From NCBI RefSeq assembly GCF_032854445.1, contig NC_088302.1:38010191-38074190 (forward strand): DNA of 64,000 bases. The letters run 5' to 3'. Positions 3,240 to 28,957 of the stretch are shown piece after piece. Below the pieces are notes generated by a model, which was not told the DNA's origin, did not search any database, and saw only the letters and a program-made list of their open reading frames with translations. Each line of letters opens with the position of its first letter. Position 1 is the first letter of the stretch. This stretch comes from Liolophura sinensis (lineage: Eukaryota; Mollusca; Polyplacophora; Chitonida; Chitonidae). Both the position numbers and the translations under genes were made by a program.

Positions 3240-6200
3240 TTACTTCTTCCAGGAACTCTGGCCATAGTTCTGGTTATAGTGCGTGTTGTAGGCGCCGTAG
3301 TTCACGCCAGACTGCTGAAGGTTCTGCATGTACGGGTTGCCGTAATATTGCTGGAAGTATTGTTGTTGCTGACCTCCACACTGGCCGGCCAGGTTGTTCA
3401 AGGATCGATAGATGCTGGGAATAGACAAACATAAGATTTCAGAGAGGTTGTGAGAACACAAGAGAAGGAAACACAGGGTCGTGAATATTCGACTTTAAAT
3501 GTGAAACATTCATGGAAATGGCTGTAAACAAACAAATGAATAAATAAGAATACGTTAGTACTGGGATGGTCATGATTAGAAAAAACAAGCGCAAATTCGC
3601 AACAGCTGTGAGATGACGCAAACAGCTTGAACCAGCTTCACACGAAGCGAGTCTCCACTAGCGATCTGTTGAGTGTTAGCGGTTGCAGAAAAGTAACTGT
3701 GAGCGTTGTTCTCATACAATACGAGTGGGCCTATAAAGGTCGCAGTAAGCTAGCAAAAGAATAGCTACAGGTATGGCTCGCTTGCCAAAACTCGTGTTTC
3801 GTGTCGACAACAAGTTTCGTGTCGTCTTGTACTCGGAGATCCTCGTTGAATGACTAAGTAATAAGATAGGATAGGAGGCCAAAAGCTGGATCGACTAACT
3901 GACCGAAGGACCGACCCATAGAAAGAGTGGCATGGAGAACTGCTTGGCGCATCTACGTTAAGCGCATTAGCCTATATTTCGCCTATAATACTGCCAGTCT
4001 GATATGAATTTTATGACGTATACAGAGCTCCTTTAAATAAAACCAAAAGTTCTGGAAACTGAAAGCCATTCAAGGCTTTGAAAAGCTCTTGAATTTCCTA
4101 AATTTTATTGAAAAAAAAAACAAAAAAAAAACAACGTGCAATAGCTAAAGATGTTTGACTGAAATTCGTAGAAGTTGGCAACGGGGTGGGCTTTCCTTCA
4201 TTGATTAATTGATTGATTACAGCTCAATGCCTAATCATGGTTAATGATTGCTTATCTGGTGAAAGGCTAATATATGTATTCTTCTCGAAGAGATCTGCAA
4301 AAATTCTTGATTTTAAAGTTCAAAAAAAAGGGTGAACCCTGTTTGAGCACTGAACTCATGTTTGTGTCTGAACTCACCAGTAATCTGTGTAGCCTGTGCC
4401 TTGATAGTTGTTGTACATAGCCTGGCAATTCTGTGGGCTGCTGATCACGTTACAGAACTGACCATTCTGCCAGTAACAAGAGTTCTGTCCCCCTAGACCG
4501 ATAAGTGCACCGTATCCCTGCTGGTTTATCTGGGAGCAGGAACCCCCGCTGGGTAACAGAGATCCCATGTGACACCGACGAACGTTATTGATGTAGTTCT
4601 GACCCTGAAAATGATAGAATGAACACATGATTTGGGGAAACGGAGTACTGATGCTGACGGTACAAGGAGATCAACATATAATGCTGACGGTATAAGGGAA
4701 TGGACATGCAATGCTGGCGATAAAAGGAGATGGACGTACAATGTTGAAGGTACAAGGAAATGGACGTTCAGTGCTGTCGGTACAAGGAGATGAACATACA
4801 ATGTTGACGGTACAAGGAGATAGACATGCAATGCTGTCCGTTCAAGGAGATGGACATCTAATGCTGTCAGTACAGTTCATTTATTTGATTGGTGTTTTAC
4901 GTCGTACTCAAGAATATTTCACTTATACGACGGCGGCCAGCATTATGGTGGGTGGAAACCGGGCAGAGCCCGGGGGAAACCCACGACCATTCGCAGGTTG
5001 CTGGAAGACCTTCCCACGTACGGTCGGAGAGGAAGCCAGCATGACCTAGACTTGAACTCAAAGTGACCGTATTGGTGAGAGACTTCTGGGTCATTACGCT
5101 GCGCTAGCGCGCGAACCAACTGAGCCACGGAGGCCCCCTGTCAATACAAGGAGATGGACACACAATGCTGTCGGTGCAAGGAAATGGACATGTTAAGCTT
5201 TCGGTACAAGCAGATGGACGCGAATATGTTTTGATGTGTTAAACGTATACAGTTAATACGAAAGGGTTTACAGCGGATTCCTGTTTCTGATATGTCCGAT
5301 TCACAATATGGCTGTAGTACTACCAATTAATGTAGCGTTAAAGCCATTCATCCTGTTCTTGTTCAAAGGTTTACAATAGTTATGCTACTACCTGTCTCAC
5401 AGCTGTAGGCTTGATACTTTTATTTAGTGAACTTCGGTAAAATGACAAAACTGAGCTAAGAAGAAAACAAAACGCTTGTTTGAAATAAGTTATTGTTTCA
5501 TGGACAAATTGTCTTTTGGTATACCATTTAAGGAAGCTCTATATTCATGCAGCATATATGTTATTTTTATGTTGAGTTTTTTGGCACATGCAGAAACATG
5601 GGGTCTTATGCTGACGTTGAATTACTTAAATTCGACTACAAGGTACGAGTCTAGCCCTTACCACTTGGTTGTAGGAGTTGTACCACTGGTTAGTTCTCTG
5701 GCAGTACGGCTGTCCGTACCCCAGGCAGTAATTCTGAGATGATGGGCACTGGTACTGTTGGTTGTAGCAGTTGTAAAAGTTACAGTTTCCTTGCTGAATG
5801 TTGTTGTAACAATTCTGTTGATTGCCCCATTCTGTGGAAACAAAGAAAAATCAACACGTACAAGTATTCGTGAGTATACTGCATTTGTGTATACCGGAAC
5901 TAAAATACATTACAGATATGCGGTGTTATCACAGCATAATTGGTGGATTATACTACATTTATGGGGGGTGGGGGGGAATATTTTAGTAACAGTTTCATAA
6001 CGTTAATAGTAGTGAGAGAAATTGACAGCGAAAAAAAACCAATTCGTGAGAAAAGTTATGAAATTAAACGTAAAATAATCATGACGTAAAATGTATTTGT
6101 TTCATTTAATTTCATTTTATTTTAAGAACACTCGACAGAGCCCATCCTTGTAGGGGAAACAGTCGTACTGGTACTTTGTCGGGTAACCAATACCTGACCA

Positions 6201-8125
6201 ACACCTGAAGTAAACCCAAAGCTCAGTGTACATTAAACAATATTACCTTCTGAACTATGAAGCGCTCGTGCTCCGGCTGTCTTAAGTGAATATTAATATT
6301 TGACTAAAAGAGAAGGAATCAATATCCTATATTTGTATAGCGTTAAAATGCTTCATTATCAGTTTTGTATGTTCTTGGAAACAAAAAGAGCTCTTGGAAT
6401 GAATGTAGCTTGTTTTGCATTTTTTCCAAACTATTTTAGTGTTTTTCCGAACAAAATAAACGTATCAAACCCTACGATATTTACATGCCATTATTTTTCA
6501 CGTATACTAATAATTTTCATTACCACGAAATCCACAAGAAGTATATCTGCTACATCTACTTCATCTTGTCTGACCGCTTTACAGGATACATCTGCAGGTT
6601 TGCATTTTTTACAGGAATATGATGTTTGTATACCAATTTTCACCCATGAATATTATTTATTTGTTAATTTATTATATAATAAATTTATTTTATAATATTA
6701 TATTACACCACAGCATTGTGCTGGGAGGAAACCGAACAGAGCCCAGGGCAAACCCACGACCATTCACAAGTTGCTGGGAGACCTCCATGAATATAGTGTG
6801 TAAGTATACAGACACATACGTTGTAGAAAATGTTGTTGTACTTCTTACAAATCAAACCTCGCTAGTTTCGTATGTATGATTTGCCACAGATCCCCTAAAA
6901 GGTTACAAATATTTCATAAATGCCAGGGAATTAAACCGGTGCCAGAGAGTGCAAATGTCGTCCGCTGAAATGTGGACATAGTACAACCTGTGATCAGGCT
7001 CAGTAAGGGATTTTTTAGAGAGACCCCGTAAAATTTATAGCCCAACATCTTAAGAATGTACACGATAATTGAAAATACCTGCCGTTTAAGGGAACTGTAT
7101 AGTTATACCAAATATTATTTTTGAGATATACCAATATGAATAGTTTTCCACACAAACTTTAAAATTAGGGTTTTTCCCATGTTTCAAGCGCGACGCAATA
7201 TTTCTGGCATGTCTGATGTCACAAGCAGAACAAATATGTCTTTTTTTAACCTCCTGGCTTTGAAAATACAGGGATAATGCTACTGATAATAATCGACTAA
7301 GACAGCATTAGAACTTGTGACAGTGCGTCACTTTGCAGATGGACACATAAGCTTGAACTGGATTCGAACTCTCGACCTGACCGGTCATCTGCGACGCCTT
7401 AGACGAAAAAGTCAGCATGAGCCAAAACGCGTAAAAGAATTGTACGTACGATTATAGTTTTGCCAAGGATTTCCTGAGTAGCCAACGCCGTAGTTAGGTA
7501 TACAGCCGGACTGTCCCCCTGTACAGCCTACACCGCCTGGGTAAATTCCGCCGCCACCGCCACCGCCACCGCCGCATTGGGTGCCGACACAACCACCGCC
7601 GCCGGGGTAAATTCCACCACCACCCCCGCATTGGTTGCCGATACAACCGCCGCCTCCAGGGTAAATTCCGCCACCGCCACCGCCGCATTGGCCACCGACA
7701 CATCCACCGCCACCGGGGTAAATTCCACCGCCACCGCCACCGCCACATTGTGTGCCGACACAACCACCGCCTCCAGGGTAAATTCCACCTCCTCCGCATT
7801 GACCACCAACACATCCACCACCCCAGGTTCCGCCACCCCCACCGCATTGTCCACCCACGCATCCACCGATCTGCGGCCTACAATTGCCACCTTGGCAACC
7901 ACCTATGGGTTGCCTGCAGCCAGAACCACCACCCTGGCATCTTTTGCCACCTTGCCATTTCCACGCAGTGACTTGCTTCTTCCTCCAGCTCGCAGCTTTC
8001 GCTGTAATATTTGCCTTAGGGTTCTTGTCAGCTTTTTTATCTTTCTCGTCCTGACACTGGCAATTATGAAATGTGAAAACCAGGATTAAACATGAAGCAA
8101 GTAAAATTAAATATCGATGTTCCAT
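3240..8125 (-). CDS. Gene A: secreted Gly/Cys-repeat protein with stanniocalcin-like domain
   Basis: Four exons on the minus strand: 7450-8125, 5662-5831, 4378-4604 and 3240-3414, with intron phases 1, 0 and 2; the product is about 415 aa. Residues 1-24 are a clear signal peptide. A short Lys-rich stretch follows, then at about 60-215 six copies of a unit with a CVGxQC pair in glycine runs ending IYPGGGG. Exons 2-4 encode a Cys-rich Gln/Asn/Tyr-rich domain (CNFYNC, YCQR, GQNYINNVRRC, CYWQNGQFC, YCIYRSLNNLAGQC) and a QQY-rich tail. The start is the ATG ahead of the signal peptide, about 60 bases downstream of a TATA box. Every splice site is GT/AG, and codons rejoin sensibly: C+AA gives Gln at the first junction, TG+C gives a conserved Cys at the last. 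The domain is shared with genes B and C and resembles stanniocalcin in Cys spacing (inferred). A role in extracellular matrix is inferred from the signal peptide and Gly/Cys repeats; no enzyme motif is seen. Confidence 0.8.
4640..5225. repeat. 30-bp minisatellite in intron 2 of gene A, split by a SINE
   Basis: Units of about 30 bp (gctgacggtacaaggagatg and variants) run from about 4650 to 4874 and resume at 5138-5220. The interruption is a full SINE. The ATG-containing unit keeps short frames open, but these are not coding. Confidence 0.75.
4875..5137 (-). mobile_element. Full-length tRNA-derived SINE (V-SINE/RUDI-like)
   Basis: Read on the minus strand it begins with a tRNA-like head: box A near 5105-5130 (tggctcagttggttcgcgcg) and box B near 5050-5064 (gagttcaagtctagg). 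Next come a body with a conserved tail (acgtaaaacaccaatcaaat) and an A/T-rich end. It is flanked by matching 11-base copies at 4864-4874 and 5138-5148 (ctgtca-g/a-taca), as expected of a target duplication. This is the most complete copy in the window. Confidence 0.85.
6709..6786 (-). mobile_element. SINE fragment in intron 1 of gene A
   Basis: Matches the central body of the SINE at 4875-5137 (gcattgtgctgggaggaaac, then cccacgaccattcacaag). Both ends are missing. Confidence 0.65.
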
Positions 8126-8186
8126 AATTTCAACCGATGGTGACTCCCCTCTCCAAAACTGCTGGTATCTGAGGGTTGGGAATGTG

Positions 8187-8196
8187 TTATATATAT
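8187..8196 (-). promoter_or_regulatory. TATA box of gene A
   Basis: The minus strand reads ATATATATAA about 62 bases upstream of the gene A start codon. This distance leaves room for a transcription start near 8160 and a short leader. Confidence 0.6.
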
Positions 8197-8199
8197 CAG

Positions 8200-9164
8200 G
8201 GAGGTGTCGGGCATAGTTTCCGCTCCGTGAAAGGATGTACAGTTCTCTTTGTGCTCCGCTTTTTAATCTCTCTAATCACTTGACATTTCCAGACTCTGGC
8301 TTGGGTCAATTTGGCCGCGGTTTTATTGCACGGATGAGGAATGCTCTGAGAGTTCACAACTCTCCGTCAATATTATCATAGCTAATAAAATGCCTTTATA
8401 GTCAGTTCTTCGTATACAAAGCAACTCACTAAATTACTGAGCCAAGATTCACAGGGATATATCAGTTTATTTTAGTTATGTCTTAATTATATTTAAAAAC
8501 AAAATAAAGGTAATATAGACAAAAAAAAAACAAGAAAAATAATGAAATACCAGTGCTGTTACTCCGATGGACTCTTCTGGGCCTTTAGTGTTTTCAATGC
8601 GCTGATGTGTTTTTTAGCATGATGTTATTTTACTATGCACGATTGCAATTTTGCTGTGTAATGAGAACCTTGGGAGACTGGGGCGATGTGTGCTGCCAGG
8701 AAGGTTTTATCTGGAATGTGCAACTTGACCAGTTTCCGGTGTATTCGCTGTTACGCACCTGATCAGAGGCTGACGGAGCTGAACGCCGACATGTCGTTAT
8801 CGTGTGAGACTGGGGATGCTGGTAATCACACAGAAAGGCCGAGACGTCATTTTGTGGTGTTGCCTTGTTGGGATCTGACCGTGATTCTCACTGCCGGGTT
8901 AGAGAATTGGGAAATGGGAAGGACCGTGCCCTCCCTTCATGCTACACCGGACTTTACCAGACTTCACCGTTGATCTCGCGCGCTCGTATGTCCGTCTCGT
9001 GCGCACCACCAGCTTTTCCGTCTGAGGAAATGCTCGAAAAAAGGGTTGCTGTTGCGGAAGAAACATTGCAGGCCGTTTTGCTCATCTCTGTGGAGTTGTT
9101 TTACAGTCATCACACACTTTCGAACGCTCTGGATTTTATCTTATTCAAACTACAGTATATTTAT
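8200..9164. other. Intergenic stretch, nothing firmly recognised
   Basis: Upstream flank of gene A. A frame at 8686-8973 on the plus strand stays open for 95 codons but lacks a signal peptide, splice context or a recognisable domain, and I do not call it a gene. Confidence 0.4.
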
Positions 9165-9276
9165 TTGTTTATTTGATTGGTGTACCATTTTTAACGTCTT
9201 CGGTATAACCCGATCCGGGGCTGATCCCGACTTCGAGGCGGACACTCTAACCATTAGGCCACCAAAGCGGTACTCA
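9165..9276 (-). mobile_element. SINE with a second type of tRNA head
   Basis: The plus strand starts with the common SINE end (tatttgattggtgt) and within about 110 bases reaches a reversed tRNA-like head (actctaaccattaggccacc). This head differs from that of the main SINE family. The body between is mostly absent. Confidence 0.55.
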
Positions 9277-9564
9277 ACAATGTAAACTGCAGTTTAAAAC
9301 GACGTGCTATCTTCAGGAACAGCTATGATCTCCGAACGTTTAGATCTCCGAAGGCTTGCATGTACATCAGTTTTTGATTCGCGAGAAATGTGTTGCTTCT
9401 AAGAAAGCAGTTTGAACCTGATAATTTTTTTATGTAAAATTCTGCAGTTAACTGGAATTCATGACATTATTATATATTTACTCATGGAAAAAGTACATAC
9501 ATGAAAGCGTACGTTACCAGTGAGCATCTTAATATGGAATCTGGTCTGAAATGAATCAACTCTG

Positions 9565-9752
9565 GGGCCTGTCTTACAAAGCTGTTGCAACGCATTTACC
9601 CTGGTCACGTATATCTCTACTATATATGGTGTCATGAACGTTAAGCCATGCGCATTTTGCGAAGTAGTCGCAAAATGCGCATGGCGTAACGAGATGCGTT
9701 ATCATGGTAAATGCGCTTGACTTGCGACATGCGTTGTAAAACGGAGTCCTGG
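9565..9752. mobile_element. Foldback/MITE-like element with a long hairpin
   Basis: At the centre, 9639-9662 and 9668-9691 form a stem with one mismatch and a 5-base loop; 9645-9662 pairs perfectly with 9668-9685. Further out, ttacaaagctgttgcaacgc on the left mirrors ttgcgacatgcgttgtaaaa on the right. No coding sequence is present, as expected for a non-autonomous inverted-repeat element. Confidence 0.6.
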
Positions 9753-10074
9753 TTATTATTCTACACATATAGTAGTCTATTCAACTGCCACAGAGAAATG
9801 CCTTGGCAGCTTTGAAAGGTTTGTAAATATGAATGTCATTGTTTCTGAGCTGACGCTCGCTCAAAGGGCTATTTCTTAATCAGTTTTTAAACTTTCAAAA
9901 TAAAGATTTTTTCGGCATTACGCAAAACGCTGTTAGATTCACTCTGCATCTAAAGACCTGTTTTGGGGTAGCCTTAATTTTAAACTATAACTTTTAAATA
10001 TTCTAATACACAGTACATGTATATCTGTTATGTTTAAGACTTAACAGTTCACATCAGTATTATATAAACTCACC

Positions 10075-10284
10075 ACCCAGGAGCATCCCACCAATGCGGT
10101 CGCTGTGAGTTCAAGTCCAGCTCATGCTGGCTTTCTCTCCGGCCATACGAAGAAAGGTCTGTCAGCAACCTGTGGATAGTCGTGGGTTTCTGTCCGGTTT
10201 CCTCCCACTATAATGCTGGCCGCCTTCGTATTAGTGATATATTCTTGAGTACGGCGTAAAACTCCAATCAAATAAATAAATAAA
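10075..10284 (+). mobile_element. 5'-truncated SINE with perfect target duplication
   Basis: Carries box B (gagttcaagtccagctcatg) and the conserved tail (acggcgtaaaactccaatca) ending in AAATAAATAAATA. Perfect 12-base duplications (tataaactcacc) flank it at 10063-10074 and 10285-10296. The box A part of the head is missing. Confidence 0.85.
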
Positions 10285-10296
10285 TATAAACTCACC

Positions 10297-12611
10297 GCCT
10301 CTTATAAACCCAGAGCAGTTAAAACTGATTTCTTAAAAAAAAACGCCAGGAACCATGTCATATACCCTTGTTCACGAGGAGAGGTATTCATTTTGTAAGT
10401 TAAGAGAAAAAAATTGAGCAATAGATGGATTTATTTATTATTTGATAGGTGCTAAACACTATATTTCAAAATGGTTCCCTTGTATGATGGCCTTCAGGTT
10501 TATGGGTTGAGAAAACTGGACTGGCTGGTGTAAATCACCCCCTTTACACTCAAAAAATTAATCTGTTAACTTTAACAGAAAGTCTGTTGTCTGAGTGATG
10601 CGAAAATGTATTCTGTTATAGTAGCAGATTATTTTGTTAAATGTAACACACATATTCTATTAATTCTAACGATGATATCTATTAGACTATAACAGGATGT
10701 CATCTATTGGGTTTTGCATGCTACAAGGCGAGACCTTGGTTATGTGACCCAAATAACGTTGAAAGCGATCTCAAACCTCATTCAACTAAACAAACGAGAG
10801 ATTCGAGTCTCTCTGTGACCATATTAGCTGCGAAGATAACGAAGTTTAAAGGAAAAGAAAACTTAAAAACATGACACTATAGGCTGAAAAGAACACATTT
10901 TTTTCTATCTGGTGGTGCCCGCTGCATATTTTTGCGATTTTTCCTCGCCATACACGTAAAGCCTGAATACGCCAAAGCTGAAATAAATCGCTAAGTCCAT
11001 CGCGTCCTCCATCTTTAACACCCTGTAATTTATGCGGGGGTGTGTTGCCTCTCAGCCAGTGAGAGTCGTTAAAACTGCCGGCTTGTTCGTGTAAACTCGG
11101 AGCCTACGTCCAACATTCCGGTTTCCCGATCGTCAAGCGGAAAATGAACTGTCCTGTTCGCTATCTTCTGGGAAGAAGAGTTCTACCGGAGATGTACGAA
11201 CTGCACTTCGGTGGTTTCAGACGGCAATTCTCCTCCTAACACAGAAGACTTCAGGACTAGTTCTTAGGCAAAATGGAGTCGCCCACAGCGGATGTTGGCA
11301 CAGACTTTATTTATAATTTATCACCATGAGGTACACATTAGAATTTTGTTATGGCATGCACCTGCGCGGAAATGCATACTCTTCTCAATGGTATTTGATT
11401 GATATTTAAATTTTCTTCTCCTTTAAGCCATAGAAGCCCCTTTCCTTGTAAGGTTTTATAATGAAATTTACTAGAGGATCTTGTCTTGCCAGTAAGCGTA
11501 TATATAGCTCTTGAGAATACAGATTTGCAGATTTAAATGATATTCAAGATGCTAAAAAGATGACGATAGCTTTCCTTTACACTGGTTTATTCAGTCTGCT
11601 ATTGAACAAACAATGTAGTCACTCTTATTAAAATCTATCAATCAATCAGTCAACTGATCAACTCATTAGGGACAATCAGTAAACTAGTCAAGACGTAAGA
11701 AAAATCAACCAGTCAACCAGTAAATGCATTAAGAACTTTCAGTTAACCAATCAATCATCAATAATGGAAATAAATGAATTAGATGAACAACTTTTCAGTC
11801 CACAGTGGAAACCAGCCAAGAACTCAATCAGTCAATTCATATTGGAAATCGCCGTATTCCCTTCCGGATCAAACTATTTTGAAAATGAAACAAACAACTA
11901 ATAAATTGCCAAAACTAGACCATTTAATTTTTGAAACAAAAAACTATTTGTAATTAAATTTCATTTATTTTACGTTGGAACACGTCTGGATTCTGCTTTT
12001 TTTTTTAAGAATCATTTTTGAAACTTGAACGTCATTAAAGTACCGTAATCATTTCCAGCTTCTTCACGTAACATTTTCTAGTTGTTCTTCCTGACTTCAT
12101 CTTTATATACCGCCGGGCATCGTAAAGTGAAACAGTTCATGATTTTTATTTAATTTTTTATTTATTTATTTATTACATCGAATCTCTTGCTTGCAGACTA
12201 ATGCCTATAATGCAAAATAGCCACTACTGACCAGTGACATTACAGTACTCAGCACACATTCTGTTGGTATCCGTAACAGCATGTTAGCCAGTTTATTGAG
12301 ATTGCATATACACACGTATCACATATTACCATAATAAGATGTTAGCTACATGACCAACTTGTTACTTCCATGTAATAGAGTATAAACATATCTCCGAGGA
12401 CAGTCAAATTTCTCAATTTGGTAAATATATTGTGTGACAGGTATTTCCTGACGATGTGATAAATGTATGTCGAAATATTTCTTCGAGGTTACATGTATAT
12501 TTTTTTATTCTCGAGTATAAATACAGAACATGAACATTAGAATATTTAACGTTTATTGACTGTTTGTTTGCGTAACATCCCTACACAAGAACTGGGAAAG
12601 TGTTAAGCTGG
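10297..12611. other. Intergenic stretch between genes A and B
   Basis: No supported gene. Around 10550-10700 there is AT-rich sequence with a short palindrome (ctgttaactttaacag). Around 11630-11850 runs of CAATCA/CAGTCAA-type short motifs give a loose cryptic repeat, and 12155-12175 is a TTTA repeat. Confidence 0.4.
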
Positions 12612-12738
12612 GGCCGGTTTCATGAAGCTTACTTAGTGTTAAGTTGCCGCTGGCTAAGTGCACTTTATATCTCCACAACATACGTTGTCAAGCTAATTAG
12701 CGGCTTATTTACCTAAGTGAGTTTCATGATACCGGTCC
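12612..12738. mobile_element. MITE-like inverted-repeat element
   Basis: Left end gggccggtttcatgaagctt continues acttag. The right end, read in reverse, is gggaccggtatcatgaaact followed by cacttag. These are imperfect terminal inverted repeats of about 27 bases around a 127-base element with no coding content. The ends resemble those at 21712-21838 and 56150-56352. Confidence 0.6.
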
Positions 12739-12951
12739 CTGTTTGAATTTATAAACTCAACAGTATAAATATTCCCACAAGAATTATTTAAAATAAAAGA
12801 ATTATTTGAAACGATTTCCACTTATATCTATTCTTTCATTGTTAATTTAATTACCAGCAATATCTCCATTTACAGCTCAAAAGATTCATTCCCAAAACTT
12901 TTCCTACTTATACAAAACTGGATTATGGTTATTTCTTTATTTTTATTTTTA

Positions 12952-15900
12952 TTATGTGAAGTTTTTGTCGTAATTCTGCCTGTAGCTGTCAGTATCCACG
13001 TCCGCTTTCTCCAGCTCTGTATCAAAATTTGTCTTGAAGTTACTGTTGAAGGAAGCCTGTTGTGTGGCATTGCATTCTTTCACCAGATTAGACATAGATC
13101 TGTATATGCTGGAAACATAAGAAGCATATATCATATTTTGAAATTCTTCTATTTTGAGGAAGATTAAACAATTTATCTCAAGCCGAATGAAAATACTGAA
13201 TCGAATGAGACTGCAGTCCGGGAATATGCATCTTTTTCAATAAAATGTCTCTCCTGGAAATATACAACAAGTAGCAAGAAAAACCAAGAAGTAAGAAAAC
13301 ACGACTATTAATTACCGTACATAATGATATGAAGAAAGGATCAAAACTGATTGAATAATAAGGTGATTGATTATATGAACCCCTTTTTGTGTCTAACTAA
13401 AACTCCGGTTCAAAGGAGAAATGTGCGTGCAGAATTGAAACTTTGCCTTTTCAGCGGACAGGAGAAAATAGGCCTGAGGTAGAAAATACCATTTGTCCGT
13501 ATAGGCTTTATGGTTAAGTGTAGTTAGCTTTCAAATGTCATCGAGTCCACACTGCAAGCTTTTGGTTCAGTTCACATTGCTGTTTGTGTAGATATTGATA
13601 ATAAACTAAGTCAGCGAGGTGCAAAGGAAGTAACTGTCACCGTTAGAAAATAAAATTGCGCGTTGAGGTGCCCGTGTAATTCTGGATGCGAGCAGTAATG
13701 GGTATACGTTTATGTATTAACGTGTACAAGGTCATAAGTGTCGATTATGTCATCTTTGTCATTAGCGGTGCTATTTAAACACTCCTTTTAGTGATAGCTA
13801 AAACCAGGAATAATTAAGTGTCTATTTAAATCTCCTCACGTCTGTCCTAAAGTCCGAAAGTAATGTATTTTGACAGAGATGGATTAGTTTGCGCTTCAAT
13901 GTGTAACGTTCAGAGGTGGAATTGTATGGTTACAGTTGCAAAAACTTCAACAATCCACTAAAGTTTGACAATTTTTAGTATCTAAACTTTGTGCTTTACT
14001 TTGTATCATTTGTAACACAACCCACAGTGTAATGACCCAGGAGTCTCTCACCATTGCGGTCGCTGTGAGTTCAAGTCCAGCTCATGCTGGCTTCCTCTCC
14101 GGTTGTAAGTGGGAAGGTCTTCAACAAGCTGCGGATGGTCGTGGATTTCACCCGGGCTCTGCCAGGTTTCCATCCACCATAATGCTGGCCGCCGTCGTAT
14201 AAGTGAAATATTCTTGAGTGCGGCGTAAAACACCAATCAAGTAAATCAATAAATGTAACACAACCACACTGGTCTGTTTCTCAGTCAAGATAAATGAACT
14301 GAAGAATCAAAGAGAAACCTATCCCTTGCTTTTGAGCATTGTGGTTAGGGTGGTTCTATCTCCTTCTTCCGGTCTCGGTCGTTCTTACCGCTTACTGCTG
14401 TTAGTGGTAGCAGTTAAGTTTGGACAAAGCTTCACAGGCCTAGGTAGGGCAATGAAACTTACAGACCATGAGTGTTGCAAGAACGGAAGCTCGATATAGA
14501 GCGATCATAACAGCAAAGCGTAAAAGCTGGTGACATATTTATTTATTTATTTATTTGATTGGTGTTTTACGCCGTACTCAAGAATATTTCACTTATACGA
14601 CGGCGGTCAGCATTATGGTGGGTGGAAACCGGGAACCGACTGGTAACATAAGCCAATGAATTGAGCAGGACATTATTTTACGCAGTGTGAAAGTAAACGA
14701 AATGCTTACCAATAACTTGAGTAATTTATTCCTTGGACGCTGCTGTACAAAACTTGACAGTCGGTTTTGTTGCCGATGACTTGGCAGAATTGACCATTTT
14801 GCCAAAAGCAGTTGTCCTTAGCCCTGCCTCCCGCCACAGCACTAATACCCTGCAGCTCTGTCAGCGAGCAAGTTGTCAAACCGCGCGCTATAGCACTGAT
14901 CTGACACTCACGGACTTTCTGAATGTATTCTCGACCCTGTGGATGAATACAGAATTTAGTTAGTGCTAAAAAAAAATGTGTTTACAAATCATTTATCTGA
15001 AGAAATATTTAGTATACAGATTGAATTACTATTTTTTGTGGCCTGTAATACACAGTATTTGAGAAATATTGGTATAAGCTGTAATTCAAAAATTGTGCTA
15101 CACTGTAGATCATTTTGGTCAGCCATTTCTTACTAAACTAACACATCTTAATCATATTTGCGTCCATGCATATTTAATCTTTTTGCCATGTATACATTAA
15201 AAAGATATTTACTTGTTATCATATGCGTATTGTGGTTATTTTTACTAAGGGTTTTAGGAGGGTTAATAGGGGTGTATATTGCATTACGTTTTCCGACTAG
15301 AAATAATAATTTCTTTGTTCTTTACTCAATAATTTTCCTCTTACACGGCGTTGATCAGATTTATAGGTGGAAGCAACTGGAGTAAACCAACGTCCTTTCC
15401 CGTATCTAAGAAATCTGACTTAAAGCCGCAGCGAGAGCTAGATTCGATCCCGCAACCTTACTTACTACGACAGATCGGCAGCAACGGTAAGAACGCTTTA
15501 GCTGACTATATTGTACTGTATACGTTACCTTGTCGGAATAGGCTGTAAGGCTATGATTTGCACGCTGACAGTAAAACCGTCCTACATCCACAGCAGCGCC
15601 TTCCATCCCGGGACACGGGTTGTTTTTGTTTAGGCATTCATAAAACTGGCAATCGGGGGCTTGAATCTGGCTGGCACAGTCTGTCAACAAAACGCATAAA
15701 ATCTCTTCACATCAAAAATACTATACATAGTGAAGCATACTACACCGTAAAAAATAGTACTTAACACAACAATTTGCATCGTGTATTCTTTCTTATAGTG
15801 TACGTCTATGGCGGTTCGTGCTGAATGTTGTTTTGGAAATTGGTCTTTTCATTATTGACTGAGAGCGTCCATTTTGGTTGAGGGCTGGTATACGAATTTC

Positions 15901-18900
15901 CCCCATAGATACTCACGAAATACACCGTCAAAAATATAATTTGCCCGATTAGCAAGACTCCATCAAAACTTCCTTCTAGCTCTTCTCTGTAACAAACAAA
16001 TCCCCTTCTGTGTCGTCATGATGCGGTTGAAGTTTGCCCGTTTCAAACATACAGATGATGTATTCTTCATTTTTTCGATGGTCTTATGTTAAAGTTATTA
16101 CCGAAACAGGGCAGTAAAGCTTAACGGACGTCTTTGTCTCAAGAAATCCATACCGGTATCTGACAACGAGAAACATTACTTGCCCAAACAAGTTGACCCC
16201 AAACTGAGTAAAAACACGTCCGTCTATGCAGTGCTTGTGAACTATATCTTTACTTATAGGAGCACAACTACACAGAACCTTAGATGTATTACAGCAAAGA
16301 AATAGTACATCGCTTAAGTTGACTGACATGTTTTAGGCGGGCAATGATTCATTGCTTAATGCAACACTTACTGCTGGTTCCCCAGGGCTGTCGTGGTGGC
16401 TGCCAGGGCTGACCGTGGCCACATCCTCCTGGGGGTCTCCGTAACCCTGGCCTACATCCCTGGGGTTGACCCGGAGGGGAGCGAGAGGGAAGTTTCCAAG
16501 GAGGTCTCGTGGACGGTCGACAGCCACCAGATTGCCCACCTCCTGGTGGACATCTCGGGGGTCTTGTCTGATATGGTGGCCTCGTTTGAAAGGGTGGTCT
16601 TCGTGTTATAAAGGGACGTCGCGTCTGAGATGGTGGTCTTTGCGTCCTATGCGGGGGTCGCGTCTGATATGGAGGCCTTCGTGTAACTGACGGTCGACAG
16701 CCACCAGATTGCCCACCTCCTGGAGGACATCTTGGGGGTCTTGTCTGATATGGTGGCCTAGTTTGAAAGGGTGGTCTTCGTGTTATATATGGACGGCGCG
16801 TCTGAGATGGTGGTCTTTGCGTCCTATACGGGGGTCGCGTCTGATATGGAGGCTTTCGAGTAGCAGACGGTTGACAGCCACCAGATTGCCCACTTCCTGG
16901 TGGGCATCTTGGGGGTCTTGTCGGAAACGGTGGTCTTTGCGTCCTATACGGAGGTCGTGTCTGATATGGAGGCCTTCGAGTAGCAGACGGTCGACAGCCA
17001 CCAGATTGCCCACCTCCTGGAGGGCATCTCGGGGGTCTTGTCTGATATGGTGGCCTAGTTTGAAAGGGTGGTCTTTGTGTTCTATAGGGACGGCGCGTCT
17101 GAGATGGTGGTCTTTGCGTCCTATACGGGGGTTGTGTCTGATATGGAGGCTTTCGAGTAGCAGATGGTCGACAGCCACCAGATTGCCCACCCCCTGGTGG
17201 GCATCCCGGGGGTCTTGTCTGATATGGTGGCCTAGTTTGAAAAGGTGGCCTTTGTGTTCTATAGGGACGGCGCGTCTGAGATGGTGGTCTTTGCGTCCCA
17301 TACGGGGGTTGTGTCTGATATGGAGGCTTTCGAGTAGCAGATGGTCGACAGCCACCAGATTGCCCACCCCCTGGTGGGCATCTCGGGGGTCTTGTCGGAA
17401 AGGATGGTCTTTGCGTCCTATACGGAGGTCGTGTCTGATATGGAGGCCTTCGTGTAACTGACGGTCGACAGCCACCAGATTGCCCACCACCTGGGGGGCA
17501 CCCCGGGGGTCTTGTCTGATACGGTGGCCTCGTTTGAAAGGGTGGCCTTTGTGTTTGTGGAGGCCGACATCCGTTCGGTGAAGAGGGCCCTGGTCTACAT
17601 TCAGGAGGCTTTGTCTGGAAAGGCCTTCTTGTGGTTGGTCGGTTTGTGTACCAAGGGTCACGTGATGTTGCCGGTGGTCTTTGGGGATTTCTTGTGGTTC
17701 TCCACGGTCTTTGTGTTTGAGGAGGCCGACATCCAGTTTGCCCTGGGCGACATCCAGGAGGTCGTGTCTGAAAAGGTCTTCTTGTGGTTGGTCGGTTTGT
17801 ATTCCAAGGGTCACGTGATGTTGCCGGTGGTCTTTGGGGATTTCTTGTGGTTCTCCACGGTCTTTGTGTTTGAGGAGGCCGACATCCAGTTTGCCCTGGG
17901 CGACATCCAGGAGGTCGTGTCTGGAAAGGTCTTCTTGTGGTTGGTCGGTTTGTGTACCACGGGTCACGTGATGTTGCCGGTGGTCTTTGGGGATTTCTTG
18001 TGGTTCTCCACGGTCTTTGTGTTTGAGGAGGCCGACATCCAGTTTGCCCTGGGCGACATCCAGGAGGTCGTGTCTGGAAAGGTCTTCTTGTGGTTGGTCG
18101 GTTTGTATTCCAAGGATCACGTGATGTTGCCGGTGGTCTTTGGGGATTTCTTGTGGTTCTCCACGGTCTTTGTGTTTGAGGAGGCCGACATCCATTTTGC
18201 CCTGGGCGACATCCAGGGGGTCGTGTCTGGAAAGGTCTTCTTGTGGTTGGTCGGTTTGTGTACCAAGGGTCACGTGATGTTGCCGGTGGTCTTTGGGGAT
18301 TTCTTGTGGTTCTCCACGGTCTTTGTGTTTGAGGAGGCCGACATCCATTTTGCCCTGGGCGACATCCAGGCGGTCGTGTCTGGAAAGGTCTTCTTGTGGT
18401 TGGTCGGTTTGTGTACCACGGGTCACGTGATGTTGCCGGTGGCCTTTGGGGATTTCTTGTGGTTCTCCACGGTCTTTGTGTTTGAGGAGACCGACATCCG
18501 TTTTGCCCTGGGCGACATCCAGGGGGTCGTGTCTGGAAAGGTCTTCTTGTGGTTGGTCGGTTTGTATTCCAAGGTTCACGTGTTATCGGAGGCCTCTGGG
18601 GATTCCTGGTGGTTCTCCACGTTTGTCTCGTGGGCCTGGGTGTGCTTACGTGCCATGGATCGGGTAATGGTCGAGTCGGCCTTCTGCTTGGGGGCCTTCT
18701 CTGGGTGGTAGGACGAGTGTACCAGGGTGGTCTTGTTGTGTTCGGGCGGTTAGGCCTCCGGGTCGTACTCATGCGTTTTGCTGTGACCCACGACCCACGT
18801 TTCGGGCGATTAAGCAGTTCCTTTTGGGATAACCGTTGCGATGACGAAAACTGACTTTCTGGAATAGCATCCGCCAGCTTTTCTTGAGAAGCATCTTGAA

Positions 18901-19057
18901 GAGTGTCGTTCTTTGCATGATCGGGTATATTCTCCCAGACCCACACTGTCTGCTCACCGTGGATGGATTTTCTCCACTCCCCACAAACGCAGGTAATCCA
19001 AATGAGATAGAATAACGAAATGACGAGGATACCGCGTCCATGGAAATGCCTGAGCAT
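12952..19057 (-). CDS. Gene B: secreted Pro/Thr/Arg-repeat protein with stanniocalcin-like domain
   Basis: Four exons on the minus strand: 16372-19057, 15529-15680, 14710-14936 and 12952-13108, with intron phases 1, 0 and 2; the product is about 1073 aa. Exon 1 encodes a signal peptide (residues about 1-26), a possible furin site (RPKR), then two repeat arrays. The first has seven 51-aa units of the type RPWRTTRNPQRPP with a CRPGQNGC Cys pair; the second has seven CPPGGGQSGGC units spaced by PPYQT/RRP stretches. Exons 2-4 encode the same Cys-rich domain as gene A (CQFYECLNKNNPC, YCQRANHS, GREYIQKVREC, CFWQNGQFC, YCIYRSMSNLVKEC). Exon 3 is 227 bp in both genes. The frame through exon 1 would run 7 codons past the donor if unspliced; the AGC-A/gtaagt donor joins in phase to exon 2. 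A matrix or adhesive-type structural role is inferred. No catalytic motif is seen. Confidence 0.8.
14023..14253 (+). mobile_element. SINE in intron 3 of gene B
   Basis: Carries box B (gagttcaagtccagctcatg), the central body and the conserved tail, ending in a TAAATCAATAAA run. The 12-base duplication tgtaacacaacc lies at 14011-14022 and 14254-14265. The first part of the tRNA head is missing. Confidence 0.85.
14534..14634 (-). mobile_element. Truncated SINE in intron 3 of gene B
   Basis: Only the tail third is present: a TTTA repeat, then gattggtgttttacgccgta and the gcattatggtgggtggaaac body. It ends about 75 bases from the exon 3 donor of gene B. Confidence 0.75.
15800..15925. repeat. Dispersed repeat, copy 1
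   Basis: This part of intron 1 of gene B matches 31400-31510 at several points: a ttttgg/gaattggtcttt core, then gcgtccattttggttgaggg and tatacgaat. It is a pair of copies of an unknown interspersed element. Confidence 0.4.
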
Positions 19058-19110
19058 GTCTGAAGACGCGCGACCGGCTCCCGTTTGCCTTTTCTGGGAG
19101 AATGTCTGTC

Positions 19111-19118
19111 ATTTATAG
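19111..19118 (-). promoter_or_regulatory. TATA box of gene B
   Basis: The minus strand reads CTATAAAT about 55 bases upstream of the gene B start codon. Its placement relative to the ATG is similar to the gene A TATA box. Confidence 0.6.
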
Positions 19119-21711: not shown

Positions 21712-21838
21712 GATTTTCACGAAGCACTCTTAGCGTTGCGTTCACTTAACTACCACTGAAACCAGTAGTGTAGGCATTACGTCTTCATGGTAGTTGCGAG
21801 CTCGTAACGTTAAGAGAGCTTCGTGAAAACTGGGTCCT
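21712..21838. mobile_element. MITE-like inverted-repeat element
   Basis: Left end agggatcgattttcacgaag then cactcttagcgtt; the right end in reverse reads aggacccagttttcacgaag then ctctcttaacgtt. The two ends are imperfect inverted repeats of over 30 bases around a short spacer. No coding content. Confidence 0.6.
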
Positions 21839-22479
21839 TGTAACAGGGAGCTTCATTACGAATGCCTACCAGACACTCTGGACTGTTACTTATGAATGTA
21901 TTTGAAGACTTTACTTTCACACAGATAAGTTCACAATGCACATACATTTAGATAAAAACCTCCAACTACATGCAGCTCATCTTTTCAAAACCACCTACCC
22001 CTTTTCCGGCTTCTTTCATACACTGACATATTTACCGTGTTAAGATAGGAAATGTATCTGAAAAAGTGACGTCCGTGTGTATCGTGTTTCGTGAAAGACT
22101 CGTTACATTTTTATATCATTTCAAAGTTTGTGTTATCTCTGGCTTTCTTGGTACGAAACGCACGAAATTTTGCGAAAGTACAGGCCTACCATAGAGAGGT
22201 ACATTCCTTATCTTCCACACATGAACCGGACCAAAGTCATATAAGTGATTTAAGGACACTAGTATTTGGAAACTAACCAAAAAATATATTTACAAAAAAA
22301 TTATTTCAAATCTAATTTAACAATATATAGTGAAGTAGCTATAAACAATTCTTCCGCTCTTATACAGTTAATATATATGCAAGTGTTAAGTCTTTTGTCA
22401 ACCTCTATATCTATCTCCTTGACTTACTTTCACGCTGTGATTTTTTATTTTTCAAGCTAACAGCATGAATATCTCAAGC

Positions 22480-23560
22480 ATGCCCTTTCACTTTATACCA
22501 AGTTTTCAAATCTGATTGAAATTATTATACGTAACATTGGTACCAGTGTTTATTCCTGATGCTGGGTCTCATACACTGACCATAATACAGACTACTATAT
22601 TCAGACTTGCCTTCTCACTTTTATACCAAGTTTTCAAATCTGATTGAAATTATTATACGTAACATTGGTACCAGTGTTTATTCCTGATGCTGGGTCTCAT
22701 ACACTGACCATAATACAGACTACTATATTCAGACTTGCCTTCTCACTTTTATACCAAGTTTTCAAATCTGACTGAAATTATTATAAGTAACATTGGTACC
22801 AGTGTTTATTCCTGATGCTGGATCTCATACACTGACCATAATACAGACTACTATATTCAGACTTGCCTTCTCACTTTTATACCAAGTTTTCAAATCTGAC
22901 TGAAATTATTATAAGTAACATTGGTACCAGTGTTTATTCCTGATGCTGGGTCTCATACACTGACCATAATATAGACTACTATATTCAGACTTGCCTTCTC
23001 ACTTTTATACCAAGTTTTCAAATCTGACTGAAATTATTATAAGTAACATTGGTACCAGTGTTTATTCCTGATGCTGGGTCTCATACACTGACCATAATAT
23101 AGACAACTATATTCAGACTTGCCTTCTCACTTTATACCAAGTTTTCAAATCTGACTGAAATTATTATAAGTAACATTGGTACCAGCGTTTATTCCTGATG
23201 CTGAGTCTCATACACTGACCATAATATAGACTACTATATTCAGACTTGCCTTCTCACTTTTATACCCAGTTTTCAAATCTGACTGAAATTATTATAAGAA
23301 ACATTGGTACCAGTGCTTATTCCTGATGCTAGGTTTCATAGACTGACCATAATATAGACTACTATATTCAGACTTGCCTTCTCACTTTTATACCAAGTTT
23401 TCAAATCTGACTGAAATTATTATAAGTAACATTGGTACCAGTGTTTATTCCTGATGATGGGTCTCATACACTGACCATAATATAGACAACTATATTCAGA
23501 CTTGCCTTCTCACTTTATACCAAGTTTTCAAATCTGACTGAAATTATTATGACACAGTAT
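22480..23560. repeat. 128-bp satellite-like tandem array
   Basis: The landmark ataccaagttttcaaatctg recurs at 22495, 22623, 22751, 22879, 23007, 23134, 23262, 23390 and 23517, a spacing of 128 (twice 127) bases. Each unit also holds ggtaccagtgtttattcctg. There are just over eight well-kept copies, and two or so decayed copies follow to about 23770. No coding potential. Confidence 0.9.
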
Positions 23561-23770
23561 CGATTACAATGTTTATTCTTGATGTAGGGACCAATAAATT
23601 GACTAAAATATGGACTACTGTACTCAGATTTGCTCCCTCAATTTATACCAAGTTTAATATCTATCTTAAAATTATTACCGACATAGTAGCATTGGTACCA
23701 ATGTTCATTCTTAATGTTGATACTAGGATAAAGTGACTGACATATCAACTACTATATTGGGGTTTACATT

Positions 23771-24214
23771 TGTATTTATATTACGTCCACGTTCAAGGAA
23801 GTACTTCCCAGATGTCAAGGCAGGCCTGTTGTCATCAGAATCTAGCTAGTCATACGTCACGGATATGCAAATGAATCTTACAGCCAATCACCAGCGCCTA
23901 GATCGTGCAGGCCTCCCAGTGTTTACCTATCCCGCAAATGTCACACTGCTGTGGGCTGATGGTATTCATTACACTGGGCAGTATATGTTGGCCGTTCGTA
24001 CCTAGACCCGGTACAAGCTGTATCGTCCACACACTTAACCAATCATGCAGGCTTGGTATAACAGCCAAGGTGGTAACTGTATGCTACAAACGACGAACAT
24101 CTTTAATACCTGGATAATGGCGAAGAGTAAGGTTGCATCATCTGTTCAAAAGGATAGAAGCCTGTGTCAGTTAGTGACGTATACCTTTGTTCTATTAGTT
24201 AAACACACACATTT
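23771..24214. other. Intergenic stretch with one unexplained open segment
   Basis: Between two tandem arrays. One plus-strand frame near 23905-24010 reads like a protein fragment (VTLLWADGIHYTGQYM) but stops at once. No splice sites or homologous exon support a gene. Confidence 0.3.
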
Positions 24215-24380
24215 TCCCTGTATCAACTGATCACACATACATATTCCATCTATCAACTGATCACATACATATTCCCTCTATCAACTGATCACACATACAT
24301 ATTCCATCTATCAACTGATCACACATACATATTCTCTGTATCAACTGATTTCACATACATGTTCCCTGTATCAATTGAAG
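24215..24380. repeat. 33-bp minisatellite
   Basis: About five copies of tatcaactgatcacacatac plus atattccctc, with small length changes. Confidence 0.8.
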
Positions 24381-25376
24381 GGAAGTGTAAGGGAAAGGAA
24401 CGCACCAAATTTAATGGTTGAAGTTTTGACTTAAATCTAAGATTGCTTCGTGATCCTGTGGCCCAGGGCTAATACGCCACAGTACAGCAGCGTAACTTAC
24501 AGCAGAAATCCATGTGGTTTACTGCATTCTGGACTTCGTTGTCTATCTCATTATAGTATCCCATTATGATTTATAGCTAACTATTCCAGTGCGTACGTAA
24601 TCATTTGGTGGCATAAGTTTATACTGCCAAAACCTGTTTTCTAATTAAAGATATTTTCATTTAATTAAGAAATGATGTTACAAACTTTGAAAATATTCTC
24701 TTGATTCGACGATTTTCCATCGCACAGCTTTGTACTCGTTACAAAACCCTCCTGCTAAATTTCGTTTCGATTTTTGATGGGAACATCTACAGTAATTACA
24801 ATCACATAACATCGAAAAGTATAATATGATTTTTATTTTGGAATAGTTTTATATTATAACCCAGATACAATACATTGTAATCAATAACATATATCCCTCA
24901 GACTTTGCGAAACCTTATGGTTAGTCGTTAAAGAATGGCCTGTTGTGGTTTCATTGGTCCGCTTCATGAACGTGCCCGGAAATACTGCGAAAAAGGTTTC
25001 GTCGTCTCATTGAAAAAAAAAAATCTAAAAACAGCTGCATGTCCACCCGACCGACTTCACGTGTATACAAACGCGGGCTCCCTATGAATTCATTACCCCC
25101 GGTATAAATGTCGACTTGACATGCCTTCGAAGAGCATTGCGTCACGGTTCTAGACCAAATGGAGGCTAGAACACGAAGGTAGCAATGCGTGTTGATGACT
25201 TTTAGCGAAAAAAAGCTAATTAAGTTTGCGTTTCTGTGGATTGTTTGTAAACTAAAGTTCGTCAGTGCCCATTTATATCAGGCTGACAGAGACGAGTTAA
25301 TGAGGACATTCGGACGTGATCTGGCAAAGTGTCGTGATAATGATTACCACCGCCTAACCCACAAGCCTTCCCCGAA
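24381..25376. other. Upstream flank of gene C
   Basis: No supported gene. Short open frames at 24951-25145 (minus) and 25189-25386 (plus) show nothing recognisable. The gene C promoter is expected at the right end. Confidence 0.4.
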
Positions 25377-25390
25377 AACCATTTAAATAG
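25377..25390 (+). promoter_or_regulatory. TATA-like element of gene C
   Basis: ATTTAAATAGG lies about 95 bases ahead of the gene C start codon. It fits a transcription start near 25415, but support is only positional. Confidence 0.4.
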
Positions 25391-25476
25391 GGTTGCCCAA
25401 GCAACTATCTGCCTCTTTTCCCCTTGATTCTTGATTCTGTTCGAGTATTAGCGAAAGAAGACACCCCTGTGATAAG

Positions 25477-28400
25477 ATGCATATGACTGGGGTGGCCTCA
25501 TTGGCCGGTCTCCTCCTGGCGGTGACCTTTTGTAATGCAACGACCTTGGACCCTCTATGGACTGCTGGGGAGCGGGGACCAGATCCAAGTAAGTCTAACA
25601 TTGGGTCAGTTTCATGAAACGTTTTCAGTGTTAAGTAGCCCTTGGCTAATTGCGCCTCAAATCTTAATACTAGGTAAAGGCTTACTTATAGCGAAGCACG
25701 CTTCGTTAAACCGATCTCTGCTGATCATGAAAGTTCATCACTGCATGGTACTTCTCTTTTCCATGTCTATTTCCTAGTTTTGAGGAAATGCCAAAAAGTG
25801 GAAGACATGAAATTTAGTTAAGTATAATTTAATGATTCCAAAATATCATCAAATATGTTTGTAACCCGGTAATTTTTAAGGCACAGTACTTTCTGGCTCG
25901 CGTCAAAGTTCTTTGCCGGAATAATGAAAGTTCCCATTGTTAAGGCTAAGTCGTCTCAAGAACAAGCCAATGGGCTTTGGTAAGACAGCCTGTTACGACG
26001 ATGTTAGGACGGAGAAGTCTGACGCTCGTCTCAATGATTAAGCGTCCTAACAGAACTTGCATCTATGCTACAAAACTGGCACCCATGTCTTAAAACAGCC
26101 TAAGGTCCTCATAACTACCCTTGTACCAAGGTCTTCATAACTACCATTGTACCAAGGTCCTCATAACTACCCTTGTACCAAGGTCCTCATAACTACCCTT
26201 GTACCTTCTGTATAATGCTTTGCAATAGGGAAGGAAACCTAAGACAAAGGTTAAATGGTGAGAGGAGTCTTTGATTTATTGCTCCAAGCTATATTTAGCA
26301 TACCGGTAGGATCAATAGTCTTGATCACAAAACAGCCAACATAACTACGATAATAGCCAATGTTGACGCTATTAAGTTGCCATGGTAGTTACATTCTTAT
26401 ACCATGACACGGACTGCAGTACACTGATCATATCGCTCCTATGTTTATCTTAAGTGTTCTTTGGAAAAAACACCTTTGCTGTGCAGTGATTCAAAGGGAA
26501 TTTAGCATTTGTTGAACCTAGACCTAGGATATATTAAGGGCTCCATCCCTGAAAGGCTAACATTTTCTAGATTTGGTTTTCGAAACCTTTTTCTGTAGTC
26601 TGTCAAACGTAATTTCTTTTGTAACAAAATCCAGTGTTGCTATGGTTAGGTTTGATGTTCGTTTTACCATTCGTTTCACCAACATGTTGAGCGCGTGGAA
26701 GCACCCAGCGTTTTAACACCGTTGTTTCTTCACACCCAGGTCTGGTTACTCCTCAATGTGTGGACGCTGGCGACTGCAACATGTGTAAGTTCTTTGGGTG
26801 GATCGCTCATCGTCAGAACTGCGATGCCAGCGTCACGGAGTTGCTGAACCGTTACTGCGTGGCCACTGATGCTAACTACAACTCCCTCTCCAGTACCGTG
26901 AGTACTTGTTCCATTTCATTATCACCTGTACACAGGCGAGCTGAAAAAAGGGATAGAATTTTCAGCGACAGTTGGGATGTTGTAAAATATTTTTGCCTTA
27001 AAGTAGACTGACTGAAAGAATACGTATTTATGGCTGTTAATGCACTCATGTTAATACATCAAGAAAGATTTACTTTCTGAAAGTGAAACAACAACCTAGA
27101 GACCAGTGAAAACACTGTCTTGAGTGAAACTCTAATAATCTATCCGTTTCCATCTGACTTGGTAGCTCGGTTGGTAAATCGAGCAGTGTGCCTGGGCATT
27201 TAGAGTTTTTCTTGTTGGTCTCAAAATAGTTGTTCCAGTGTTGGAAATTAAATTTATGAGAGACATTTATGAATTTACATCATTCGATGACTTATGTTAA
27301 CTTGCAGGGAAAGGAGTACGCCACCTTAGTCAAAGCCTGCCAGATCAAAGCTTTGATTCCCTTCTACGGAACGTCTGCCGGAACTTGCTCCAAAATTGAG
27401 TCTGTTGCGCAGCTCTCGTGGTTCGGCACGGCTGGTTCTCATCTGAGCTGTCTCTTCCAGCAAGGTCTTCTCTGTGACCTCATTAAGAACGATCAGGACT
27501 TAGAAGTTTACTGGCAAATTTATGAAGAATGTACCACTCCCGAATCTGAGGCGTAAGTATACATGTACTTACTTTTAAACTGTCAATTAAGTACCCTGAA
27601 GAATGGTCTGTAGGCTGTGGATTCAGGGTTTATGTGGAGGACAGAGAGTGAAACGAGGGACGCAATGGCAGTGTGATAGCTTGCAAATCATTACACGTAA
27701 CCGACGAAATACGACCTCTTGTCAATTTTTCTCAGTTAGGGTATTGTTCTTAAAGTTCATGTAAATGCTTAAATAGTAGAATATCCCCTGGAATCATAGC
27801 TTATGTAGAATTAGGCAAAAGACGTCACAGGTCTATAGGCCTAATTACTCAAAATGCCGGTTGTCATCACATTTAACATACAATAGCATTAAAAGAGTGA
27901 GGGTTTTGGAACACCGGGTTCCAAAGTCCTGGAAAGTCCGTTTGTGTGTAGTTCTTTAAACTTTGCTTGAGTATAATACTCATAAGATGCTATATAATTC
28001 TATTTATTTATTTGATTGGTGTTTTACGCCGTACTCAAAAATATTTCACTTATACGACGGCGGCCAGCATTATGGTGGGAGGAAACCGGGCAGAGCCCGG
28101 AGAAAACCCTCAACCATCCGCAGGTTGCTGTCAGACCTTCCCACTTACGGCCCGAGAGGAAGCCGGCATGGATGCTATATAAAAGCATAGGCACAACAAA
28201 ATGGATATCATCTTGATCACAAGAAACAGTTGTATTTCATTATGATTCAGGTATAAAATTATGATTTAGCCATAAAATCGTTCTTTGATGTACAGGATAA
28301 TAACCTTCATGCAATCACTGGCCAAAGGAAAGTGTGATGCCGCAGCCAGCAACAACCTGGAGGATTTTATTCAAGACAAATTTGACCAGCCAGACCCTAA

Positions 28401-28779
28401 CCAACCACCAGCCAATCCCCCAGCACCATCGAGACGACCACCAGGCAATAACTCACCATCGAGACGACCACCAGGCAATAACCAGCCATCGAGACGACCA
28501 CCACCCAGTAACCCAGACCCTTGGACACCAGAACCAGCCATTACCCCAGACCCATGGCCTCAACCTCCCGCACGTCCCTCACCTCGACCTCGACCTCCTG
28601 TAAGACGCCCAAATAAAAACAAGAACAAAAACAAAAACAAGAACAAGAACAAGAACAAGAACAAGAATAAGAATAAGAACAAGAATAAGAACAACAAAAA
28701 CAACAATAAGAATAATAATAGACGGCCAACTCCCCCTACTCCTAGGGTTCCTCCCCCTTACAACCTTCACTACTGGTAA
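25477..28779 (+). CDS. Gene C: secreted stanniocalcin-like protein with Pro-rich and Lys-Asn tail
   Basis: Four exons: 25477-25588, 26740-26897, 27308-27552 and 28296-28779, intron phases 1, 0 and 2, about 332 aa. Exon 1 gives a signal peptide (residues about 1-20) and a short linker; a second in-frame ATG two codons later could also serve as start. Exons 2 to early 4 form the Cys-rich domain shared with genes A and B: CVDAGDCNMCKFFGW, GKEYATLVKACQIKALI, CLFQQGLLC, FMQSLAKGKC. Exon 4 continues into a tail of SRRPPGNN repeats, PDPW/PRPRPP stretches, about fifteen Lys-Asn pairs and a Pro-rich end. Unlike A and B, the low-complexity arm is C-terminal and has no Cys. It lies on the opposite strand to A and B. 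Structural or matrix-binding role is inferred from composition; the basic tail could bind acidic polymers. Confidence 0.8.
25603..25720. mobile_element. MITE-like fragment in intron 1 of gene C
   Basis: Begins gggtcagtttcatgaaacgt then tcagtgttaagtagccc, like the left end of the element at 12612-12738. The right end is less clear. Confidence 0.4.
26096..26206. repeat. 26-bp tandem repeat in intron 1 of gene C
   Basis: Four copies of aaggtcctcataactaccct plus tgtacc stand side by side. Confidence 0.85.
27998..28170 (-). mobile_element. SINE in intron 3 of gene C
   Basis: Tail, body and part of the head of the main SINE family, 5'-truncated. Perfect 12-base duplications (gatgctatataa) flank it at 27986-27997 and 28171-28182. 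Its right edge is 125 bases from exon 4 of gene C. Confidence 0.85.
28605..28726 (+). repeat. Coding AAC-AAG microsatellite in gene C
   Basis: Alternating AAC/AAT and AAG/AAA codons give the Lys-Asn stretch of gene C, grading into Asn runs at its end. The pure runs make length variation likely. Confidence 0.85.
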
Positions 28780-28951: not shown

Positions 28952-28957
28952 AATAAA
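28952..28957 (+). promoter_or_regulatory. Polyadenylation signal of gene C
   Basis: AATAAA about 173 bases past the gene C stop codon, the first such hexamer downstream. Confidence 0.6.

Follow-up and report, generated by a model that had tools for sequence, protein, structure and literature searches.

Three stanniocalcin-related genes with long arms in the chiton Liolophura sinensis, candidate extracellular matrix proteins

The window analysed here is a stretch of 64,000 nucleotides (C8:38,010,191-38,074,190; C8 counts 58,388,612 bases) from the genome of the chiton Liolophura sinensis, a species named L. japonica at first publication and given its present name by correction (PMC12441733). 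The genome that we searched comprises 632 contigs (609.46 Mb), and assembly GCA_032854445.1 is described as having 632 scaffolds, scaffold_4 included, and 609.5 Mb (PMC11068029). Within the window lie three predicted genes of four exons each, here called A, B and C. Gene A, on the reverse strand, begins with exon 1 (7450..8125), which encodes a leader-like N-terminus and an arm rich in Gly and Cys, continues with exon 2 (5662..5831, 170 bp), where the stanniocalcin-related domain starts, and exon 3 (4378..4604, 227 bp), and ends with exon 4 up to the stop (3240..3414), beyond which AATAAA occurs at 2883 and 2845. Gene B, on the same strand, is composed of exon 1 (16372..19057), with a leader-like N-terminus, a furin-like site and an Arg/Pro/Thr repeat arm, exon 2 (15529..15680, 152 bp), exon 3 (14710..14936, 227 bp) and exon 4 up to the stop (12952..13108), with AATAAA at 12947. 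Gene C lies on the forward strand, so that B and C stand head to head; its exon 1 (25477..25588, 112 bp) encodes a leader-like N-terminus and a short stretch devoid of any arm, followed by exon 2 (26740..26897, 158 bp), exon 3 (27308..27552, 245 bp) and exon 4 (28296..28779), which carries the end of the domain and a Pro-rich, then (NK)n tail, with AATAAA at 28952. With exon coordinates rebuilt from the sequence, the introns are GT-AG in nine cases out of nine, their phases (1, 0, 2) are common to the three genes, and each gene has a single open frame from ATG to stop, for predicted spliced proteins of 415 (A), 1073 (B) and 332 aa (C). The rebuilt models thus bear out the four-exon plan, the phases and the exon sizes that the initial annotation had proposed. 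TATA-like sites are found 60-137 bases upstream of the three ATGs and AATAAA signals at most 500 bases after the stops, both as consensus matches rather than proof.

Several other features share the window with these genes. Two tandem genes for chitin-deacetylase-like proteins (PF01522, 3.2e-11 and 1.4e-10) occupy 36496-37911 and 46370-48430 on the forward strand, some 8 kb and 18 kb downstream of C, and in the second of these proteins two furin-like sites flank a long run of NQT N-glycosylation sequons. A minisatellite with a 128-bp unit (8.4 copies, 96% matches) separates B from C at 22484-23550, and at 1604-2766 a 69-bp unit is repeated in tandem about 17 times (75% matches). One dispersed repeat, SINE-like by eye, recurs in introns of A, B and C (about 4870-5130, 14080-14250 and 27990-28180), as well as in an intron of gene D, introduced below. 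Finally, an open frame at 43816-44313 (+) presumably resembles a fragment of a retroelement reverse transcriptase.

The domains encoded by exons 2-4 of A, B and C resemble one another through a series of short blocks. One block reads CNFYNC in A, CQFYEC in B and CKFFGW in C; exon 3 contains GQNYINNVRRC, GREYIQKVREC and GKEYATLVKAC, respectively; C[YF]WQNGQFC in A and B corresponds to CLFQQGLLC in C, and IYRS[LM]xNL, in the last exon of A and B, to ITFMQSLAKGKC in C. All the blocks on which the initial annotation had relied are therefore present, even though the exon 3 block of C reads VK and not the VR that had been claimed. When compared with phmmer (against a database of four real and 2000 shuffled sequences), A and B match at 3.6e-40, A and C at 1.2e-11 and B and C at 1e-7, which confirms the three genes as one family; the likeness among them exceeds chance. 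Moreover, the eight genome-wide matches of B at E<=10 are, without exception, exons of A, B, C or F, the last being one of the short genes described below.

The initial annotation had also proposed to compare the domain with the stanniocalcin profile of Pfam, and no direct match emerges: when the domains encoded by exons 2-4 of the three genes are scanned, Pfam returns no family at E<=10, and a joint A-C profile searched against the PDB finds no stanniocalcin at E<=10, its top match being an unrelated protein at 0.031. Full-length A yields a sub-threshold glycine-rich Pfam match only (E 0.011), while AlphaFold models of exon 3 only, as a contiguous translation, reach a pLDDT of 51.5 for B alone and of 51.3 when the exon 3 rows of A and C are added. 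Since the initial annotation had itself held that its reading would fall if no profile or structural match to stanniocalcin were found, the direct Pfam and PDB profile negatives, taken alone, would bring it down.

The chiton genome nevertheless harbours stanniocalcins of its own, through which A-C can be compared with the family. When the genome is searched with PF03298, a single exon is hit (28.1 bits), located at 45.58 Mb on the chromosome that carries A-C. Around it and around the matches of its protein lie, 7.5 Mb from A-C, three complete short genes in tandem, D, E and F (loci L024 and L025 on C8). They encode proteins of 193, 194 and 197 aa, which end 21 or 22 residues past the tenth Cys, from four exons of 103-106, 161, 215-224 and 103-106 bp with phases 1, 0, 2, hence with a short exon 1. 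A TATA-like site precedes D, none being found before E or F, and the N-termini of all six genes, A to F, are hydrophobic and leader-like as judged by eye. Exons 2-3 of D match PF03298 at 42.1 bits (8.4e-11, for a cut-off of 23 bits) and the D-F profile retrieves stanniocalcin-2 from the PDB at 1.6e-9; the predicted products of D, E and F are ordinary stanniocalcins. When the six-gene alignment is scanned, three of the six members match PF03298, with a best value of 2.5e-12 (the members are not named in the output, and A, B and C have no match individually), along with three chance-level families hit by one member each (E 0.012, 0.014 and 0.071). A joint profile of all six genes finds stanniocalcin-2 in the PDB at 7.6e-8, weaker than D-F alone, and A-C therefore add no signal of their own.

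The link between the two sets of genes emerges when they are compared with each other. In a single hhalign comparison, the A-C and D-F alignments match over 139 columns at E 1.7e-10, and phmmer relates D to A at 1.7e-9, to B at 2.6e-9 and to C at 6.1e-5 (again among four real and 2000 shuffled sequences). At face value, an unrelated Cys-rich domain might have come to resemble stanniocalcin by convergence, a reading that the failure of A-C in the direct Pfam and PDB profile tests would favour. To exclude a mere Cys pattern, we shuffled all residues but Cys, and no Cys-fixed shuffle attains the real profile scores: the D-F profile gives 54.2 bits for A, 47.8 for B and 29.9 for C, against top shuffles of 16.2, 15.6 and 13.6 (2000, 1991 and 1916 of 2000 shuffles scored, respectively), and the A-C profile gives 49.7 for D, 38.2 for E and 44.5 for F, against 16.8, 17.5 and 16.8 (in all comparisons, 1916 to 2000 of 2000 were scored, the rest being unreported by HMMER). 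Furthermore, introns 2 and 3 fall in identical alignment columns and phases in all six genes, and intron 1 is always in phase 1, 1-7 residues ahead of the first Cys; a review describes STC1 and STC2 as sharing exon boundaries. Convergence is thus very improbable in our view.

The Cys residues follow the same scheme. In STC1, the disulfides are C45-C59, C54-C74, C65-C114, C98-C128 and C135-C170, with C202 serving for dimers (PMC2744999), from which the pairs C1-C3, C2-C5, C4-C7, C6-C8 and C9-C10 would be expected in the chiton genes. In the alignment, A, B, D, E and F occupy all ten columns of this scaffold and C nine of them. In C, Trp takes the place of C3, and a further Cys, located three residues ahead of C2, could stand in with shifted spacing. 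Domain Cys totals are 13, 12, 11, 10, 10 and 10 from A to F, two extra Cys being common to A and B at identical columns. No Cys follows C10 in any of the six genes, which therefore lack a dimer Cys like C202 of STC1 or C211 of STC2; ancient fish STC1 is also reported without the C-terminal dimer Cys (PMC2744999), and this residue is therefore not strictly defining of stanniocalcin. Altogether, profile comparison, intron columns and phases and the Cys scaffold make it well supported that A-C are strongly diverged paralogues of the short stanniocalcins D-F; the divergent branch that the initial annotation had suspected is upheld through D-F as a bridge, not through the test that it had proposed. 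Because they remain below the Pfam threshold, we file A-C as stanniocalcin-related paralogues and not as Pfam members.

Genome searches with the single proteins B, D, C, A and F recover exons of A-F; all other candidates are weak, with an E of 0.135 or higher. Three of these (L017, L018 and L019, E at least 0.135) were rejected, as their translations show no family motifs by eye; one further weak candidate is on C6 and another on C1 (E at least 0.135 as well). Within the reach of these searches, the genome would contain six members of the family, which all map to C8 and form two clusters separated by 7.5 Mb. A tree of seven sequences (A-F, with stanniocalcin-2 as the outgroup) unites A-C in a clade with a UFBoot of 97, within which A and B group at 79; no clade is made up of D, E and F alone, F adjoining A-C with a support of 71. 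The root of this tree is weak because the outgroup branch is long.

What sets A-C apart is their arms. The arm of A (201 aa) contains 18 Cys, including seven CX4C units, and the whole protein is 26% Gly. The arm of B, counted after the leader, reaches 869 aa, with 30 Cys in 15 regularly spaced loops (six CX6C, eight CX9C and one CX10C), and is built of a 153-bp unit in 6.8 copies, plus longer units; protein B is 20% Pro and 16% Arg, with a pI of 11.7. RPKR, at aa 84-87 of B, is a strict furin-like site ahead of the repeats, and no other strict site occurs in B, nor any in A or C. Protein C is 13% Pro, and its tail (145 aa; Pro/Lys/Asn) is free of Cys. One might suspect that what looks like an arm is in fact a separate gene or a non-coding repeat attached to the domain by mistake, which we hold to be scarcely credible. 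Without exon 1, A and B would lose both leader and start codon, the phases fit in all three genes, the tail of C sits in the same exon as the end of the domain, and D-F, too, follow this plan, their exon 1 being short; it is on account of phase, splice sites, the leader-like N-terminus in exon 1 and this common plan that exon 1 is predicted to join exons 2-4 in A-C.

The initial annotation had regarded the arms as unrelated, which is borne out for A and B as far as tested: apart from the Cys pairs, the two arms are not significantly alike, and when the A arm was shuffled 300 times with Cys held fixed, 95 of the shuffles scored as high against the B arm. For the tail of C, 14 of 300 shuffles score as high against the B arm, a weak signal that is perhaps compositional, and 117 of 300 against the A arm. 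A point missing from the initial annotation is that the arm is located in exon 1 in A and B and in exon 4 in C, which suggests that arms were gained at least twice. No published account of an armed stanniocalcin was found among the matches listed, a search that covered a library of PMC papers, judged by titles, listings and a few passages.

Common ancestry, a shared four-exon plan, a kept Cys scaffold and arms at two places are supported by the sequences. Beyond this, our best guess, which we regard as on balance probable, is that A-C serve as extracellular matrix proteins, with a stanniocalcin-type domain as their foundation. We infer their secretion into a matrix from their composition, from eggshell listings, from STC2 in the hen uterus and from the chitin-deacetylase-like neighbours of C; A-C themselves were seen in one species. 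Stanniocalcin-1 is indeed listed in the eggshell proteomes of ostrich and zebra finch, and STC2 is reported as raised in the uterus of the laying hen; the deacetylase genes may owe their position to chance. The stanniocalcin-related domain would then be a compact, disulfide-locked head holding a partner or a surface, and the long arms would supply bulk and charge, to which those of A and B would add numerous Cys pairs that could form loops or cross-links, in a setting such as cuticle, radular or shell-plate matrix. More tentatively, a family of hormones or protease inhibitors may have turned structural, with three paralogues gaining unrelated arms at two gene sites, two of them with Cys-pair arrays able to cross-link a chitin or mineral matrix.

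A kept Cys scaffold also suggests a working fold, and A-C could still be soluble stanniocalcins engaged in signalling or protease inhibition, whose arms would only anchor them (e.g., on chitin or on polyanions) or prolong their lifetime. A flatworm study lists stanniocalcin under peptidase-inhibitor family I100, STC2 inhibits PAPP-A (PMC9780223), and the RPKR site of B could free a pro-piece. We nonetheless find this unlikely: Cys120 of STC2, the covalent link to PAPP-A (PMC9780223), has no counterpart in the alignment of the six chiton genes, the domain of A has drifted to a Gln/Asn/Tyr-rich sequence, and a genome search for Peptidase_M43 returned no exon, which is a weak negative given that exons were searched apart and no candidate even scored.

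Arms of low complexity are also found in proteins of mucus, adhesives, silk and defence, and the repeat-rich, mostly basic and Cys-rich make-up of A-C would fit mucus, adhesive or immune-defence proteins of epithelia equally well as skeletal matrix. In mussel, stanniocalcin ranks in the top 25 transcripts of a column taken as gill from its neighbours (big defensin, dermatopontin). A Pfam scan of the three exon 2-4 domains and of full-length A, however, reveals no defence domain, and we deem an epithelial role of this kind improbable. If the matrix-protein reading of A-C were confirmed, a family of hormones or inhibitors would have been recruited as building material in a mineralising animal, named genes would be at hand for tests in radula, girdle and shell-plate tissue, and the missed annotation would be explained by a domain that is below the reach of Pfam without its bridging paralogues.

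Among known chiton proteins, RTMP1 of the teeth is comparable to A-C in being secreted, as A-C probably are, and in having long Gly-rich repeats beside a more compact region (PMC6351634). As described in the part of that paper devoted to it, RTMP1 has Gly/Ser-rich, then Trp/Phe-rich and His-rich regions, and no stanniocalcin domain is named there; as this make-up differs from that of A-C, identity with RTMP1 was rejected (PMC6351634). With the stanniocalcin family (PF03298; vertebrate STC1 and STC2; chiton D-F), A-C have in common the scaffold Cys in order, the four exons and an N-terminus that by eye is leader-like, but they differ from it in lying below Pfam detection, in bearing long arms and, for A and B, in possessing two extra Cys.
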